Of a stretch of DNA of 64,000 nucleotides, positions 27,176-35,080 are shown piece by piece. Under the pieces are notes generated by a model. That model ran no database searches and was not told the origin of the DNA. It saw nothing but the letters and a program-made list of their open reading frames with translations. The DNA lies in assembly GCF_029360665.1 (NCBI RefSeq), contig NZ_JARDUB010000003.1:620001-684000 (forward strand). Reading direction: 5' to 3'. Made by a program: the position numbers and the translations under genes. How positions within the stretch are numbered: the first letter of the stretch is position 1; every line of letters begins with the position of its first letter. Source of the stretch: Eudoraea chungangensis (GTDB lineage: Bacteria > Bacteroidota > Bacteroidia > Flavobacteriales > Flavobacteriaceae).

Positions 27176-27296
27176 AGGCTGCGAATATATCCAAAAATGT
27201 CTTAAATAAAAACCGCTAGATTAATCTAAAAGACCAACTAACCATTGGAAACAGGCGACATCATATAACTTCCTCTAGGAAAGTGGTTTCCTAAGC

Positions 27297-27308
27297 TGAT
27301 TTAAATCA
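27297..27308. promoter_or_regulatory. Palindrome before hsp20
   Basis: TGATTTAAATCA is a perfect 12-base palindrome ending 16 bases before the first possible hsp20 ATG. It resembles the half-sites of an FNR-type box (TTGATnnnnATCAA). A regulator is not proven. Confidence 0.3.
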
Positions 27309-27375
27309 TTTCAAGGGAGTTATAATGACCTTACTTTTAAGCTTAAATAAAGTTGAACCCAAAAAATTTACTACT

Positions 27376-27849
27376 ATGTCACGTATTAAAATGAATAAAA
27401 AAAGAAAGCCATTTGTGACGGACTTAGTCACTTCCGATTTTTTTGATATGGAAGATTTTTTTGACAATCGATTTTGGAGCAATCGATGGTTAAATGACAA
27501 TTTCTGGAATGGCAGAAAAGGAGAACCTGCTCTAAACATTAAAGAAACAGAGGATAAATTTGAAATTGAAATAGCGGCCCCAGGTTTCGAAAAAAAAGAC
27601 TTCGTAGTTACTCTGGAGGAGGGCACCTTAATTGTTAAAGCTGAAAAATCTTCTGAAGAGGACGAAAAGGATGAAAGTTTTACTCGCAAAGAATTTAGCT
27701 ACAGGGCTTTTGAAAGAAGGTTAGTCTTACCCGAAAATTTAAAAGAAGAAGAAATCAAGGCGGTTTATGAAAATGGCATTTTACGCTTTAATCTTCTAAA
27801 AAAAGAAGAAATTGAAAAATCCAAACCTACCATCGTAGAAATTAAATAA
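27376..27849 (+). CDS. Hsp20/alpha-crystallin small heat-shock protein
   Basis: ATP-independent chaperone holding unfolded proteins in the cytosol. About 157 residues from the ATG at 27376 (MSRIKMNKK); an ATG at 27325 preceded by AGGGAG would add 17 residues. The alpha-crystallin domain runs from PALNIKETEDKFEIEIAAPGF to the AVYENGILRF motif (the A-x-x-x-N-G-[IV]-L signature), with a short C-terminal tail rich in K/E. The stop is followed by a terminator shared with the convergent patatin gene. Confidence 0.92.
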   Translation: MSRIKMNKKRKPFVTDLVTSDFFDMEDFFDNRFWSNRWLNDNFWNGRKGEPALNIKETEDKFEIEIAAPGFEKKDFVVTLEEGTLIVKAEKSSEEDEKDESFTRKEFSYRAFERRLVLPENLKEEEIKAVYENGILRFNLLKKEEIEKSKPTIVEIK

Positions 27850-28719: not shown

Positions 28720-29916
28720 TTAAATTTTATTCTCTTTTACTAAGGCATAGGTTTGTTTGGCAATTTCTGCTTCTTCATTAGTAGGCACCACCAAAATTTT
28801 AACTTTAGAATCAACCTCCTGTATTTCCCTTAAATGATGCCTATGCTCACTGTTTTTCTCTCGATCTAAACTTATCCCAAAAAAAGACATATCCCTGCAT
28901 ACCATTTCTCTTATCAGGGAAGAATTTTCTCCTATCCCTGCTGTAAATATAATGGCGTCTAAACCATTTAAGACCGCAGTGTAGCTACCTATATACTTCT
29001 TTATCCGATAGGCATTCATTTCCAGGGCCATTATGCAATTTAAATCCCCTTCTTTAGCAGTCCTTTGAATATCTCGTAAATCTGTTAATCCACTTAAACC
29101 AAGCATTCCGCTACTTTTGTTCAACAACGCTTCTACTTCCTCTAATTTATAACCTAAATTCCTAACCATATAAAAAATGATGGAATGATCAATATCGCCA
29201 CTACGACTACCCATTATTAAGCCGTTAGAAGGGGCAAAACCTAAACTATGATCGATACTCTTACCATTCTTAACCGCCGTAATACTGCAACCATTCCCCA
29301 AGTGAATTGAAATTATATTTTCTAAAGAATTTCCAAAATAACCATTTACTTTTTCGGTAACATATTTATGACTTGTACCGTGAAACCCATAGAGTTGAAT
29401 TCCATTTTCGTCGTATAATACATTTGAAATAGCATATTTTTTTGCCTTTTCAGGAATGGTTTGATGAAAGGCCGTATCAAAAACAGCGACTTGTTTTGCC
29501 TTTGGAAATAATTTTTCTGCAACAGTAATCCCGGCTAAATTATGTGGATTATGCAGAGGAGCCAGTGTTCCCAATCTATCTATGGCTTCTTTTACCTCTC
29601 GATTTATCAAAGTAGTATCACTAAAATCATTTCCTCCATGCACCACCCTATGACCAATTGCGGATACATCTTCAGCGCTAGATATGCTACCCTTTTCTGT
29701 ATCTAATAAAAGGGCAACTATAGCTTCCAAGCCCTCAAGATGGGTTTTTATAGCTATTTCCTCCTTTATTTTAACATTCTTATTTTGATAAGTCAACTGA
29801 GAAGTTTTCCCACCAATTCGCTCTATAATCCCGTGAGAAAGTACTATTTCTCCCGGCATTTCAACTAATTGAAATTTTATGGATGAACTCCCAGAATTTA
29901 TAATAAGTATTAGCAT
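28720..29916 (-). CDS. ackA: Acetate kinase
   Basis: Interconverts acetyl phosphate plus ADP and acetate plus ATP. It is 398 residues. Family motifs are LIINSGSSSIKFQL at the N-terminus, VFDTAFHQTIP, HLGNGCSITAV and FTAGIGENSSLIR. It lies 2 bases downstream of pta, giving the usual pta-ackA overflow pathway for ATP generation from acetyl-CoA. Confidence 0.96.
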   Translation of the reverse strand: MLILIINSGSSSIKFQLVEMPGEIVLSHGIIERIGGKTSQLTYQNKNVKIKEEIAIKTHLEGLEAIVALLLDTEKGSISSAEDVSAIGHRVVHGGNDFSDTTLINREVKEAIDRLGTLAPLHNPHNLAGITVAEKLFPKAKQVAVFDTAFHQTIPEKAKKYAISNVLYDENGIQLYGFHGTSHKYVTEKVNGYFGNSLENIISIHLGNGCSITAVKNGKSIDHSLGFAPSNGLIMGSRSGDIDHSIIFYMVRNLGYKLEEVEALLNKSSGMLGLSGLTDLRDIQRTAKEGDLNCIMALEMNAYRIKKYIGSYTAVLNGLDAIIFTAGIGENSSLIREMVCRDMSFFGISLDREKNSEHRHHLREIQEVDSKVKILVVPTNEEAEIAKQTYALVKENKI

Positions 29917-29918
29917 TT

Positions 29919-32021
29919 TTAACTCTCTTCCATTGCTTGTGCCTGAATGGCGGTGATGATAACTGTATTAAATATATCTCTGGTGGTACTCCCCCTGCTT
30001 AAGTCATTAACAGGTTTGTTTAGACCTTGAAGTATAGGGCCAATAGCCAAGGCACCTGTTTCTCTTTGCACCGCCTTATAGGTGTTATTCCCTGTATTTA
30101 AATCCGGGAAGATAAAAACCGTTGCCTCCCCGGCTACATCCGACTCAGGCATTTTAGACTTCCCTACCTTTTTGTCAACTGCCGCGTCGTATTGTATAGG
30201 CCCTTCAATTTTTATTTTCGGAGCTCTGTCCTTAACTATGGCTGTTGCCTCCCTTACCTTCTCTACATCCTCCCCTACACCAGATGTTCCCGAGGAGTAA
30301 GACAGCATGGCAATTTTTGGCTCAATGCCAAAAGCAATACTCGTCTTAGCCGAAGTAATGGCAATTTCGGCCAACTGTATGGCGGTTGGATTGGGATTAA
30401 TAGCACAGTCACCGTAAACCGTAACCCTATCCTCTAGGCACATAAAAAATACTGAGGAGACAATGGAAACACTGGTCTGAGTCTTTATAATTTGTAAGGC
30501 CGGTCTTATGGTATGCTGGGTGGTATGAATAGCTCCGGAAACCATCCCATCTGCATGCCCTTTATAAACCATCATGGTTCCGAAATAGGAGATATCCGCC
30601 ATTAGGTCTCTGGCCATAGACAAGTCAACATTCTTGTTTTTCCTTAGCTCGAATAATGTAACAGCATAATCATCGAAATATTCAGAATGTATCGGATCAA
30701 TAATAGAAATCTTGCTAAAATCGAGGCGTATATCTAATTGTTTTGCCCTCTCTTCAATCTGTTCTTTCTTACCCAATAAAGTAATTTTTACAGCATTGGC
30801 ATTGGTTAGGTCATGGGCCGCTATAAGAACCCGATCGTCTGTGCCTTCTGGCAAAACGATGTGTTTAATGTTTTTTTGAGCCCGTTTTAATAAATTGTAT
30901 TGGAACATCCTCGGAGTTATCCCGTTAGCCTGCGAGGTAATTAGCCTTGCTGCTAATTCATTTACGGGTACATATTTTGTAAAATCATTGATAGATGTTT
31001 CTATCTTCTGTTTGTTTTCCGCATAAATCTTAGGTCGTATAGCACCTGTTCTGTTCGCCACGGCAAAGGTGCCTTCAGAAACAGAGATAATCGGTACTAC
31101 GTCGGACAAGCCTTCAATAAGCCTAATAACAGGTTCTTCAGGAATAAGTCCCCCGGTGAGAATAATGCCAGACGCTGTTGGGTAATTAGATGAAAGGTTG
31201 GCCTGTAAGGCTCCCAATACAATATCTGATCTATCTCCAGGGGTAATTATTAATCCATTTTCTTTAAAGTGCGTAAGATAGTTACGCAGTTGCATGGCCC
31301 CAACGCTAAAATTACTCACTTGATTGTTAAGGTACTGTTCCCCAAAAAGCACTTTCCCTTCCAACTCTTTTACAATTTCCTTCACACTTGGATTTCCCAA
31401 TACAGGATTTAAAGGGATAACTCCGACCAAAACGTTTCTTTTTAAGGCCTTAACTAGCCCTTGATTAACCAAGTCTATATTTTCTGGCTGAACCATATTG
31501 GCTATTACCATCAAGACTTCAACTCCTTTTTCTATAAATGAATCGTAAGCTAAATAGAGGTTGTCTACTAATTCTTCCAAAGTCTTCCCCACCCCTGTAT
31601 TAATAATTACAGTAGGTATCCCTAAATTTTTTGCCGTTAACACATTAATATCCCACTCAATTATAGAACCTTCTCCTGAGAAATCCGTACCCTCAACAAG
31701 AATAAAATCGAACTTAGATTCTATCGCTTTATATTTTTCAATTATCTTATCGAGTACCTCGTCGTTTTTGTCTTGGTTATGCTTTTGAATTACTTCAGAC
31801 CTGGTAACGGCAAAGGTCTCCGGATACTCCATTTTTATATCGAAGTAATTAAGAATAGTGTAAATATGATTATCCATTTCCCCATCGGGATAGTCATCAA
31901 TAATTGGCCTAAAGTACCCAACCTTGGCTGCTTTGCCCAACAACATATTCATAAGACCTATGGAGAGAATAGATTTTCCGCTGTTTGATTCTGTTGTGGC
32001 AATGTAAATAGCTTTACTCAT
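29919..32021 (-). CDS. pta: Phosphate acetyltransferase
   Basis: Makes acetyl phosphate from acetyl-CoA. The 700-residue protein is the long form. The N-terminal part (TESNSGKSILSIGL) is a BioD/cobyric-acid-synthase-like P-loop domain, followed by a DRTGG-type domain (about 210-320). The catalytic PTA_PTB domain fills the C-terminal half (VLPEGTDDRVLIAA, SYSSGTSGVGEDV, GPIQYDAAVD, FPDLNTGNN). It is the first gene of the pta-ackA-patatin set and has a -7 box just upstream. Confidence 0.95.
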   Translation of the reverse strand: MSKAIYIATTESNSGKSILSIGLMNMLLGKAAKVGYFRPIIDDYPDGEMDNHIYTILNYFDIKMEYPETFAVTRSEVIQKHNQDKNDEVLDKIIEKYKAIESKFDFILVEGTDFSGEGSIIEWDINVLTAKNLGIPTVIINTGVGKTLEELVDNLYLAYDSFIEKGVEVLMVIANMVQPENIDLVNQGLVKALKRNVLVGVIPLNPVLGNPSVKEIVKELEGKVLFGEQYLNNQVSNFSVGAMQLRNYLTHFKENGLIITPGDRSDIVLGALQANLSSNYPTASGIILTGGLIPEEPVIRLIEGLSDVVPIISVSEGTFAVANRTGAIRPKIYAENKQKIETSINDFTKYVPVNELAARLITSQANGITPRMFQYNLLKRAQKNIKHIVLPEGTDDRVLIAAHDLTNANAVKITLLGKKEQIEERAKQLDIRLDFSKISIIDPIHSEYFDDYAVTLFELRKNKNVDLSMARDLMADISYFGTMMVYKGHADGMVSGAIHTTQHTIRPALQIIKTQTSVSIVSSVFFMCLEDRVTVYGDCAINPNPTAIQLAEIAITSAKTSIAFGIEPKIAMLSYSSGTSGVGEDVEKVREATAIVKDRAPKIKIEGPIQYDAAVDKKVGKSKMPESDVAGEATVFIFPDLNTGNNTYKAVQRETGALAIGPILQGLNKPVNDLSRGSTTRDIFNTVIITAIQAQAMEES

Positions 32022-32044
32022 AGCAAGAAAAAAATATACGATTA

Positions 32045-32052
32045 CAAATTTA
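32045..32052 (-). promoter_or_regulatory. -7 box for pta
   Basis: On the minus strand TAAATTTG fits TAnnTTTG exactly, 24 bases before the pta ATG. No good -33 element is seen. Confidence 0.45.
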
Positions 32053-32442
32053 TAGTATTCCTTTTGTTTATGCGTTAACTAGAAACTATTTTAAAAATAT
32101 GTAGCCATGAAGAGATTGGTACTGCAGCATGTTAAGCAAGATAGTCTGTATTTTGAGGTAATAGAACTGCATATAATACTCTCATAGGTGAAGAACATTT
32201 AGTTTTACCCTAGATTCTTTTAAAATTTCCAAACCTAGATCTAACTCTTACTCTTATAATTATACCCAAAAATACCTTTCTTCGAACTTCGCGAATTATC
32301 TGTTCCAAACACGGTATGCCCAGATAGAGATAAAAGCTAATTCACTTCGAAACATGTGCTCTGACAAAATTCAGGATCGATCTACCAACCCAAATAAAGG
32401 ACTAATAGAATACTACAAAAGTTAAGGGGGTGGCAACTAGAT
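32053..32442. other. Gap between divergent pta and WG-repeat gene
   Basis: The first 390 of about 500 bases without a confident gene. The plus strand has an open frame from about 32190 to a stop ending at 32425 (about 78 codons). It has no upstream start codon, and its translation reads plausibly (SNFANYLFQTRYAQIEIKAN). It may be an eroded coding remnant or chance. The promoter and palindrome for the WG-repeat gene follow after 32442. Confidence 0.35.
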
Positions 32443-32447
32443 AATGG

Positions 32448-32461
32448 ATGACCAAGGTCAT
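32448..32461. promoter_or_regulatory. Palindromic operator upstream of WG-repeat gene
   Basis: ATGACCAAGGTCAT is an inverted repeat (ATGACC-AA-GGTCAT). It ends exactly 22 bases before the -7 box of the WG-repeat gene, so its centre is near -42 from the predicted start, the usual place for a class II Crp/Fnr-type activator. Nearly the same 14-mer lies at the same spacing before the UspA gene (35067-35080). Confidence 0.5.
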
Positions 32462-32491
32462 TGCAGTACTCCCGATGCTATAATAGTTTTG
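32461..32491 (+). promoter_or_regulatory. Promoter of WG-repeat gene
   Basis: TTG at 32461-32463 and TAGTTTTG at 32484-32491 (TAnnTTTG) are 20 bases apart, as expected for a Bacteroidota -33/-7 promoter. The predicted start is about 23 bases before the ATG. Confidence 0.6.
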
Positions 32492-32520
32492 TGCTATAAT
32501 AAATCCCAAAATTAAACATC

Positions 32521-33153
32521 ATGAAAAAGTCAGTTTTATTTCTTTCGGTTTTCCTTTTCCCTTTTATCATTTTTGCTCAGAATCTTTCTGGTCTTGATGA
32601 AATTGCTCCATTTAATGAAGGTTTAGCCGCCGTTCGTAAGGGGGAAACCTGGGGGTTCATCAATAAAAAAGGAGAACTTGTAATTGATTTTCGAAATGAT
32701 TTGGTTTGGCAAGAAAAATCCATGATTACCGAAAAAGACTTCATTTCTTCTTCATACCCTAGGTTTGTAGATGGAAGGTGTATGATAAAAAGTACTATGT
32801 CCGAAGAGGGGATTACTGTCTATGGCTTTATTGATAAAAATGGCAAGGAAGTCATAAAACCAGAGTATTTAAATATCACCGAATTTCAAGAAGGTTATGC
32901 TCTTGGTATTTTAGTTACCAAGTCTTTTAGAGGTAAAAATAATTTTCAATTAAATATCTACGATTATAGTTTTAGTGAGGTTCTCCTTGATACCAAAGGG
33001 GAGATAATGCTATTGATTAAAAAGAGAGATGGTATATCAATGTCTACAAGGCGATACGAAAGACCACCGCTCACGACTAAATTTTTATCGCCTAAATCAT
33101 TGGCATTGAAATCTTCTGAAAACACTTGGGAAATAAAACCACTTGATTTATGA
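32521..33153 (+). CDS. WG-repeat protein, exported
   Basis: A 210-residue protein with a signal peptide (LFPFIIFAQN) followed by WG repeats: FNEGLAAVRKGETWGFINKKGELVID and a second unit, ITVYGFIDKNGKEVIKPEY, about 60 residues later. WG repeats form beta folds of unknown function in many Bacteroidota surface or periplasmic proteins. It is monocistronic, with a clear promoter and palindrome shared in layout with the UspA gene, suggesting stress-linked expression (inference). Confidence 0.78.
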   Translation: MKKSVLFLSVFLFPFIIFAQNLSGLDEIAPFNEGLAAVRKGETWGFINKKGELVIDFRNDLVWQEKSMITEKDFISSSYPRFVDGRCMIKSTMSEEGITVYGFIDKNGKEVIKPEYLNITEFQEGYALGILVTKSFRGKNNFQLNIYDYSFSEVLLDTKGEIMLLIKKRDGISMSTRRYERPPLTTKFLSPKSLALKSSENTWEIKPLDL

Positions 33154-33188
33154 ATATAATACTTTGGTGTTATAGGCAATACTTTTGT

Positions 33189-33938
33189 TTAGCTGGAAGA
33201 ATCATCCTTATTAATTCTAGGAAGCACTTCTTCTGGAAATGGAAACAAGATGGTGGAATTTTTTTCTGCTGCAATATTCGACAAGGTTTGGTATAGTCTC
33301 AATTTAATGGCCGAAGGAGACTTATCCATCTGCAATCCTGCTTCTAGGAGTTTTCCAGCAGCTTGTTCTTCAGCCTGAGCCAGGATTATTCTAGCTCTTC
33401 TAGAACGTTCCGCTTCTGCTTGATTTGCCATCATTCGCCTCATGTTTTCAGGAAGTTGAATGTCCTTAATCTTCACATCAATAATTTCTATTCCCCATTC
33501 GTGTGTCTCCTGTTCTACAATGGCCTTGATATTTTTGCCCATTTCCTCTCTTTTTGATAGGATTGTATCTAATTCTACTTTTCCGCAAACATCCCGCAGT
33601 GCCGCCTGAGCAAGCTGGGTAATAGCAAATGAAAATTCCTCTACTTCCAACACTGCCTTTTCGGGATTGTTAATTTTAAAAAAGACCACCCCATCAATAC
33701 TACAGGGCACATTATCTTCAGTCATTACCTCTTGTGAAATAATATTAATAGTAATTACTCTTATGTCTACTACCTGAATAGATTCAACAATAGGAATTAT
33801 CCATCTCAACCCTGGCTGTAAGATTTTAATATACTTCCCAAAGCGAAATTTTAGAGCTCTTTTGTACTCAAAAACTATTCGTATTCCGGACAACAAAAAC
33901 ATCGTGAGAACAAGAAAAAATATCAAAAGTGGATTCAT
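33189..33938 (-). CDS. Slipin/SPFH (stomatin-like) membrane protein
   Basis: A 249-residue protein with one N-terminal membrane segment (LLIFFLVLTMFLLSGIRIVF) and then an SPFH/Band 7 domain (EYKRALKFRFGKYIKILQPG, VEQETHEWGIEIIDVKIKDIQLP). It ends with a helical AEAERSRRARIILAQAEEQAA stretch. Slipins form membrane scaffolds and often pair with an NfeD protease partner; none is seen beside it here. It converges on the WG-repeat gene. Confidence 0.88.
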   Translation of the reverse strand: MNPLLIFFLVLTMFLLSGIRIVFEYKRALKFRFGKYIKILQPGLRWIIPIVESIQVVDIRVITINIISQEVMTEDNVPCSIDGVVFFKINNPEKAVLEVEEFSFAITQLAQAALRDVCGKVELDTILSKREEMGKNIKAIVEQETHEWGIEIIDVKIKDIQLPENMRRMMANQAEAERSRRARIILAQAEEQAAGKLLEAGLQMDKSPSAIKLRLYQTLSNIAAEKNSTILFPFPEEVLPRINKDDSSS

Positions 33939-34143
33939 AATAAATGTATTTAAGTTTTAAACAACTTTGAGCTATGGGATATAACTATTTATAATATGAG
34001 CTGACAAAAAGAAAGACGCTTTTTTTTTGTCAACACCCTACCCTCCTTTATAAATTACAAATAAAATCAATCGTTTCAAAATAAAAACAAGACCCTATTT
34101 GAATCCAAACCTTTATGAATATTACAAGAATTAAATCGTTTTC

Positions 34144-35016
34144 TTACTTTGATTCTTTCCGTAGAAACTCTCGCAGACTTTCTTTTTTAAAACTCCATAG
34201 CGGGTATATTCTTTCGAGCTTCATTTTTTCAACCATATCGAGGCGCCAGAAATTAAGAAAACTATCTTTATCCTCTCTCTCTAACATCACCAATATAGCG
34301 TTAGTAACATTATTTAAGTAAGTGTTTAAGGCGATTTGAATATTGTTGGAAAGGATTAGTTCAAAACTAATTCTAGAATAAGAAACCTGTTCTTTCAGCA
34401 TTTCCTTAAACCACTCTAACTGCTGCATACCGGCATATTCTTTTTCGGTTGAAATATGAATTAATTTTATTGGCTTCTCAAGACATCTGGCAATTTCTGC
34501 TAGAGATTTTATAGCGAGTATATCCGCTTCTTCAAAATCCGTTGCGTAAACAAAAGATTTTAGGTCCTGCAGGATAAATTCATCGGGAACGGCAAGGAGA
34601 GGAACCAAAGATCCTTTTATTAGGTTGGTGGCAGTGCTCCCCATAAAAAATTCTTTCCACCTATTTCCACGATGCATGCCAACAATAATAAGATCGGCCT
34701 TTATTTCTTCTGCCAGCTTTATAATTGCTTCAGAAGCGATGCTGTGTTCTTTTAAATGTACATTAGAAATTTCCCAGCCTGCATTCTCTTGGCTTTTACG
34801 CGCACAAAAATTTATCAGTCGCTCTCTATTTTCCTGTATAAGCCTTTTTTCCTTTTGGGCATAGCCCAAACTAAGTGTACTCATATACGATGGGGTCATT
34901 TCAAAAACGTTTACAGCCTGTACCTCCGCTTCTAATTTCTCAGCCAGAAAACATGCGGTATGAAGTGCTGTTTCAGCTGCTTTAGAATAATCTGTAGCAA
35001 TTAATATCCTTTTCAT
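34144..35016 (-). CDS. Double-domain universal stress protein (UspA family)
   Basis: About 290 residues from the ATG at 35016 (MKRILIATDYSKAAETAL); an upstream ATG at 35040 adds 8 atypical residues. Domain 1 (residues 1-140) has the UspA ATP-loop-like GMHRGNRWKEFFMGSTATNLI. Domain 2 (about 145-275) is degenerate, with FVYATDFEEADILA. It is a cytosolic stress-response protein with an unknown partner. Its promoter carries the ATGACCAAAGTCAT palindrome shared with the WG-repeat gene. Confidence 0.85.
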   Translation of the reverse strand: MKRILIATDYSKAAETALHTACFLAEKLEAEVQAVNVFEMTPSYMSTLSLGYAQKEKRLIQENRERLINFCARKSQENAGWEISNVHLKEHSIASEAIIKLAEEIKADLIIVGMHRGNRWKEFFMGSTATNLIKGSLVPLLAVPDEFILQDLKSFVYATDFEEADILAIKSLAEIARCLEKPIKLIHISTEKEYAGMQQLEWFKEMLKEQVSYSRISFELILSNNIQIALNTYLNNVTNAILVMLEREDKDSFLNFWRLDMVEKMKLERIYPLWSFKKESLREFLRKESK

Positions 35017-35036
35017 AATGGTATTGGTAGAGAATT

Positions 35037-35044
35037 TCAATTTA
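35037..35044 (-). promoter_or_regulatory. Possible -7 box of UspA gene
   Basis: TAAATTGA on the minus strand is an imperfect TAnnTTTG, 20 bases before the ATG and exactly 22 bases after the palindrome. The spacing matches the WG-repeat promoter. Confidence 0.4.
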
Positions 35045-35066
35045 ATCAGAGAATACGTAAAGTCCT

Positions 35067-35080
35067 ATGACCAAAGTCAT
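35067..35080. promoter_or_regulatory. Palindromic operator upstream of UspA gene
   Basis: ATGACCAAAGTCAT, extended to the 8-bp inverted repeat CCTATGAC/GTCATAGG (35064-35083). It is near-identical to the 32448-32461 site and has the same 22-base spacing to the -7 box. Likely a binding site for one shared activator, perhaps of Crp/Fnr type. Confidence 0.5.

Follow-up and report, generated by a model that had tools for sequence, protein, structure and literature searches.

Several described systems resemble the one presented here, and regulons of the FNR/FixK class II kind are as such already known. The FNR regulon of Escherichia coli and Aliivibrio fischeri uses a 14-bp palindrome with a 4-nt centre whose midpoint is at -41.5, where class II activators of Crp/FNR promoters canonically sit, and its targets include cbb3 oxidase and anaerobic respiration. 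In the FixL-FixJ-FixK pathway of rhizobia, a heme-PAS kinase, a receiver and the FixK DNA-binding protein act on low-oxygen targets that again include cbb3. Mycobacterial DosR and Pseudomonas Anr place UspA, Hsp20, a hibernation factor, acetate fermentation and respiration under oxygen-sensing control. The operators of HcpR and DNR carry a TGAC/GTCA core with an outer T (TTGAC/TTGAT) and serve NO-linked targets (PMC1274295).

The locus described here shares elements with each of these systems. Its palindromes match FNR sites in length, centre and position, its predicted targets likewise include cbb3 oxidase and anaerobic respiration, and one of two candidate regulators retains part of the Fe-S-type cysteines of FNR. 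However, the outer base of the operator is A or C rather than T (MTGAY versus TTGAT), the promoters carry the flavobacterial -7 box in place of a -10 element, and the targets have a strong stress and dormancy content. The likeness to the Fix pathway lies in a heme-PAS-like kinase, a receiver and FixK-like DNA binding, but the receiver and the FixK-like output are one protein with no separate FixJ or FixK, and the sites of this fusion look identical in kind to those of a co-resident Fnr. DosR and Anr correspond in the categories of genes controlled; they differ in operator and promoter class, DosR being another regulator and Anr another clade. HcpR and DNR have the operator core in common, but the outer T that marks their sites is not found here, and neither candidate regulator is an HcpR or a DNR. 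In the open-access literature searched, the operator, the fusion regulator and the convergence of two oxygen sensors look undescribed; we found there no description of the operator or of the fusion, most subscription journals lying outside this body of work. Within this limited scope, the term ‘undescribed’ that a preliminary description of the DNA had applied to the regulon holds.

The window, meaning the whole stretch of 64,000 nucleotides that was analysed, contains two palindromes on opposite strands, each of which ends exactly 22 bases before a -7 box, an arrangement pointed out in the preliminary description and read directly in the sequence (Table 1). The flavobacterial -7 box is known from F. 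psychrophilum to span -12 to -5 (PMC9723704). Because each operator ends 22 bases before such a box, it occupies -48 to -35 with its centre at -41.5, which bears out the earlier placement near -42, as for a class II activator. The same spacing is exact in hundreds of sites in the family. From this geometry we infer that a dimeric FNR/FixK-type activator bound at -41.5 would touch RNA polymerase and raise transcription at the window promoters, which keep the flavobacterial -7 box but have no conserved -33 element. A third site, before the Hsp20 gene, was overlooked in the preliminary description and is found when the 64-kb window is scanned with a matrix derived from outside the genus. The -7 box of the UspA gene is a weak match with two mismatches. 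The UspA gene likely starts at the ATG at 35016, because transcription is inferred to begin downstream of the mechanically assigned TTG at 35040, and for the same reason the Hsp20 gene probably starts at 27376 rather than at the mechanical ATG at 27325.

Table 1. Predicted regulatory elements, genes and candidate regulators. Positions without a prefix are those of the window; C and L prefixes denote contigs and loci outside it.
Feature	Sequence	Position	Strand	Remarks
Third operator, FNR-type (predicted), before Hsp20	CTGATTTAAATCAT	27296..27309	+	Matrix score 26.2
Hsp20 -7 box	TACTTTTA	27332..27339	+	22 nt past third operator
Hsp20/alpha-crystallin chaperone		27376..27849	+	PF00011 E=3e-23
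ackA		28720-29916	-	Regulon member in relatives, uncertain in window
pta		29919-32021	-	Regulon member in relatives, uncertain in window
Degenerate palindrome	CTGAATTTTGTCAG	32361..32374	-	21 nt before TAGCTTTT; 310 nt upstream of pta
WG-gene operator, FNR-type (predicted)	ATGACCAAGGTCAT	32448..32461	+	Centre ~ -41.5; matrix score 27.5
WG-gene -7 box	TAGTTTTG	32484..32491	+	22 nt past operator; transcription start inferred ~32496
WG-repeat protein, 210 aa		32521..33153	+	Signal peptide-like N-terminus; PF14903 E=1e-19
UspA-family protein, 290 aa		34144..35016	-	PF00582 E=1.8e-25
UspA-gene -7 box, weak	TAAATTGA	35037..35044	-	22 nt past operator; transcription start inferred ~35032
UspA-gene operator, FNR-type (predicted)	ATGACTTTGGTCAT	35067..35080	-	Matrix score 18.7
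Fnr, P0001, 231 aa		C2:158070-158762 (L054:8071-8763)		Between copper-ATPase/cbb3 operon and uspA gene
REC-Crp fusion, P0002		C5:29322-30374		Receiver domain joined directly to Crp/FixK-like output
PAS histidine kinase, FixL-like		C5:30396-32294		Adjoins REC-Crp gene (L141; C5:29200-33000); in UspA island

The palindrome proves nothing by itself, because with up to one mismatch it has 90 matches in the genome compared to 100 for a reversed control and is therefore not enriched. This is the one point in favour of chance palindromes, a reading that the spacing, conservation and co-occurrence data leave with a negligible probability. The preliminary description had named beforehand, as a result that would speak against its proposal, hits lacking any spacing preference across the genome; such a preference is found, as evident by the fact that seven of the 12 exact matches with spacings from 7 to 37 in the window's own genome fall at exactly 22. 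In 19 related loci, chosen by UspA similarity only and belonging to Arenibacter, Maribacter, Ulvibacterium and others, 71 matches occur at a spacing of 22, against no more than six at any other spacing between 5 and 39. A weight matrix built exclusively from 69 sites of genera other than that of the window yields the consensus MTGAYnnnnRTCAK, N22 without a conserved -33 element, and TAnnTTTR, wherein the first operator position is A in 50%, C in 42% and T in 6% of the training sites. The next best match in the window after the three operators scores 9.8, and in 100 dinucleotide shuffles the best score averaged 11.9 and never reached 27.5. When applied to 41 Flavobacteriaceae genomes, the fixed pattern gives 462 matches versus 5 for the reversed control, which refutes the chance explanation. 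Most of the related uspA genes in other genera have a site with spacing 22 upstream.

That these palindromes are activator sites of an FNR-type low-oxygen network found throughout the Flavobacteriaceae seems almost certain, and we consider it likely that they are the operators of two FNR/FixK-type class II oxygen regulators that drive low-oxygen and stress genes. Upon a fall in oxygen, Fnr, the REC-Crp fusion or both would bind the operators and would turn on the WG-repeat, UspA and Hsp20 genes in the window and, elsewhere, those for the cbb3 oxidase, the NosZ operon, additional UspA proteins, the hibernation factor, thioredoxin, PPDK and others. The sequences themselves show the sites with their spacing and conservation, the genes behind them, the domains of the regulators and the joint occurrence of regulators and sites; from these we infer direct binding, the pairing of regulators with sites, their Fe-S and heme content, oxygen as the signal and activation as the outcome. 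A more specific proposal, toward which we lean with less assurance, is that one code, MTGAYnnnnRTCAK-N22-TAnnTTTG, is read by two independently gained or lost oxygen sensors, namely an FNR with altered cysteines and a shortened Fix pathway. In the latter, a FixL-like kinase would phosphorylate a receiver that continues, in the same protein, into a DNA-binding domain of the FixK type.

Both candidate regulators carry PF00027 and PF13545 above the cut-off, which places them in the Crp-Fnr superfamily, and their recognition helices match (GTATESCIR in P0001 and GMATETLIR in P0002). P0001 counts the FNR structures 5e44 and 9qlt in the PDB among its nearest relatives of solved structure. Its best named match is the curated FNR family NF008365, but it scores 105 bits against a cut-off of 228; given this score and the lack of one FNR ligand, we term the protein FNR-type rather than FNR. 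Residues C7, C10 and C109 align with C20, C23 and C122 of FNR, whereas FNR C29 has no equivalent and isoleucine occupies the position of FNR S212. An extra cysteine, C56, is located where FNR has none and is invariant in 30 of 30 orthologues; the four residues C7, C10, C56 and C109 are each retained in 29 or 30 of the 30. It may or may not be that C56 replaces the missing ligand. Because invariant cysteines reside at the FNR cluster positions, Fnr probably senses oxygen through an Fe-S cluster. Two further regulator candidates, P0003 and P0004, were set aside as unfit in recognition helix or family, as was a weak match at C1:642506 that appears GntR-like by eye.

The REC-Crp fusion begins with a receiver domain (PF00072, E=3e-27) joined to its Crp part and therefore is not a FixK, which is a stand-alone Crp-type protein without a receiver. 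The first PAS domain of the adjoining kinase, which also has HisKA and HATPase domains, finds its best relatives of solved structure in the heme domains of FixL and DosP. Four kinases, each from a different genus, all have a histidine aligned with the proximal one of FixL, and the distal arginine is present in two of the four. Full-length fusions are encoded in 18 of 41 family genomes. In three genomes where no Fnr is detected at a cut-off of 1e-30, a site lies ~20-45 bp beyond the kinase/REC-Crp pair, with uspA after it. In one of these three, ATGACTTTGGTCAT, identical to the UspA palindrome of the window, precedes HPF and UspA. The REC-Crp fusion, next to its FixL-like kinase, would join the roles of FixJ and FixK in one protein.

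Site counts follow the presence of these two regulators. Across the 41 genomes, the mean number of sites per genome is 0.4 where neither is present (n=5), 7.5 with Fnr only (n=18), 11.8 with the fusion only (n=5) and 20.5 with both (n=13); the Kruskal p value of 2e-5 for these classes is optimistic, as the species are not phylogenetically independent. In a sample of 80 genomes from the phylum, eight have the site and Fnr, five the site only, four Fnr only and 63 neither (Fisher p=1.7e-5, again optimistic because of kinship among the genomes). A regulator was counted as present on the basis of E-value and alignment coverage, and some genomes are incomplete. Among the exceptions, one genome (G026) has Fnr and no exact site, and two (G023 and G004) have neither regulator and one site each. 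This distribution of the motif would be explained if both regulators, whose recognition helices match, read it. The Crp/Fnr-class activator of the preliminary description thus finds support in spacing, conservation and regulator co-occurrence, although the single regulator that it implied is probably two proteins.

A model in which Fnr acts alone was set back by the many sites in Fnr-less genomes, which the REC-Crp fusion explains. One could still propose that Fnr is the sole actor at the sites and that the fusion, while linked to the same genes, binds elsewhere. Fnr indeed adjoins the genes for cbb3, a classic FNR target, and in one genome with Fnr and no detected fusion (G008), the WG homologue is preceded by a site. 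However, the five fusion-only genomes hold 3-18 sites compared to 0-1 in genomes with neither regulator, sites lie directly after the fusion gene, and the recognition helices match, and we regard this proposal as distinctly unlikely. A slightly less doubtful, but still rather improbable, scenario is that the stress genes of the window answer to the kinase and fusion only and the respiratory genes to Fnr, with the inner bases of TGACC/GGTCA discriminating between the two. It would account for the UspA islands around the fusion gene in Fnr-less genomes, where the window UspA palindrome recurs, and for inner C/G bases that by eye seem more frequent in stress islands than where Fnr is the only one of the two regulators. 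That comparison is confounded by base composition and kinship, though, fusion-only genomes also use A/T-centred sites, and the WG site is present in an Fnr-only genome. Since G008 keeps its WG site, the targets are probably common to both regulators at least in part.

A different Crp-type regulator that responds to NO or another signal, whether an HcpR/DNR-like protein or one of the paralogues at C3:535787 and C3:396170, might also be considered. The known HcpR and DNR sites are similar (TTGACnnnnGTCAA and TTGATnnnnATCAA; PMC1274295) and a NosZ operon is among the predicted targets, but the recognition helices of P0003 and P0004 differ, the site counts track Fnr and the fusion, and cbb3 oxidase, Usp and Hsp20 targets suit oxygen better than NO. 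Such a regulator therefore seems very improbable.

The stress or low-oxygen regulon suggested in the preliminary description is supported for the WG-repeat, UspA and Hsp20 genes, each of which has a site, whereas ackA-pta and slipin have no proper site in the window. For slipin, no site was found directly before the gene. The best candidate in the window for pta-ackA, CTGAATTTTGTCAG, is degenerate, has a spacing of 21, does not rise above background and is possibly a weak or decayed site. The ATGACCAAGGTCAT palindrome at 32448, read as a two-way operator for pta and the WG gene, was rejected as the main promoter of pta, the minus-strand box being at 23 nt and the reading with spacing 22 scoring 4.6. 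The neighbourhood of WG, slipin, pta and ackA is conserved in congeners, and the WG palindrome has the exact spacing in five of eight; one more is exact with a box that is imperfect by one base, the box is displaced in another (L122), and the palindrome is absent in the last (L117). In one congener (L131), a site is followed by three uspA genes and then by pta and ackA; pta and a uspA gene that has a site diverge in a Maribacter MAG, and a site lies before pta in Arenibacter (L067/L068/L075). As the pta-ackA genes of relatives lie behind strong sites, control of ackA-pta by the regulon is plausible here as well, although the window lacks those uspA genes before pta and only a degenerate palindrome is left. 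A non-coding stretch of ~425 bp (32022-32447) lies before pta where congeners carry the site and three uspA genes. This looks like a deletion in the window's own lineage that left the decayed site at 32361-32374.

Members of the Flavobacteriaceae are abundant in sea and fresh water, and the open literature found has little on how they sense a fall in oxygen. Oxygen-limited F. psychrophilum induces its cbb3 oxidase (PMC9723704), and the text consulted names no regulator for this induction. With so sharp an operator and a fixed spacing, a low-oxygen regulon can be read in any Flavobacteriaceae genome. The class II activation geometry is conserved on an unusual Bacteroidota promoter, and the co-occurrence counts make it directly testable whether a presumed Fe-S FNR and a presumed heme kinase with a receiver-Crp protein divide the work.

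Sites elsewhere in the same genome, listed only for stretches around pattern matches and so giving a partial regulon, precede genes for cbb3 CcoS/CcoNO, a copper ATPase, a cytochrome c and NosZ operon, UspA proteins (one beside Fnr), thioredoxin, the hibernation factor S30AE (HPF), PPDK, an Rrf2 protein, a YgaP-like membrane protein, an aquaporin, DoxX, a LytTR regulator, a pyridine-nucleotide-disulphide oxidoreductase (SQR-like) and a metallo-beta-lactamase/rhodanese protein. The Rrf2-family gene and the cytochrome c/NosZ operon point away from each other and have one palindrome in common, which scores 19.1 or 23.1 depending on the strand (L053:11270-12323; C3:401269-402322). Inner C/G bases at operator positions 6 and 9 (e.g. 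32453 and 32456; TGACC, GGTCA) are seemingly commoner in stress-island sites than in sites of the cbb3 type, and could mark a preference for one regulator, this count being made by eye and confounded by base composition. In two genera, a site is followed by the S30AE hibernation-factor gene and then by a UspA gene (L052:2193-2489; L142:12750-13118), an arrangement that gives the regulon a dormancy flavour, as in DosR.
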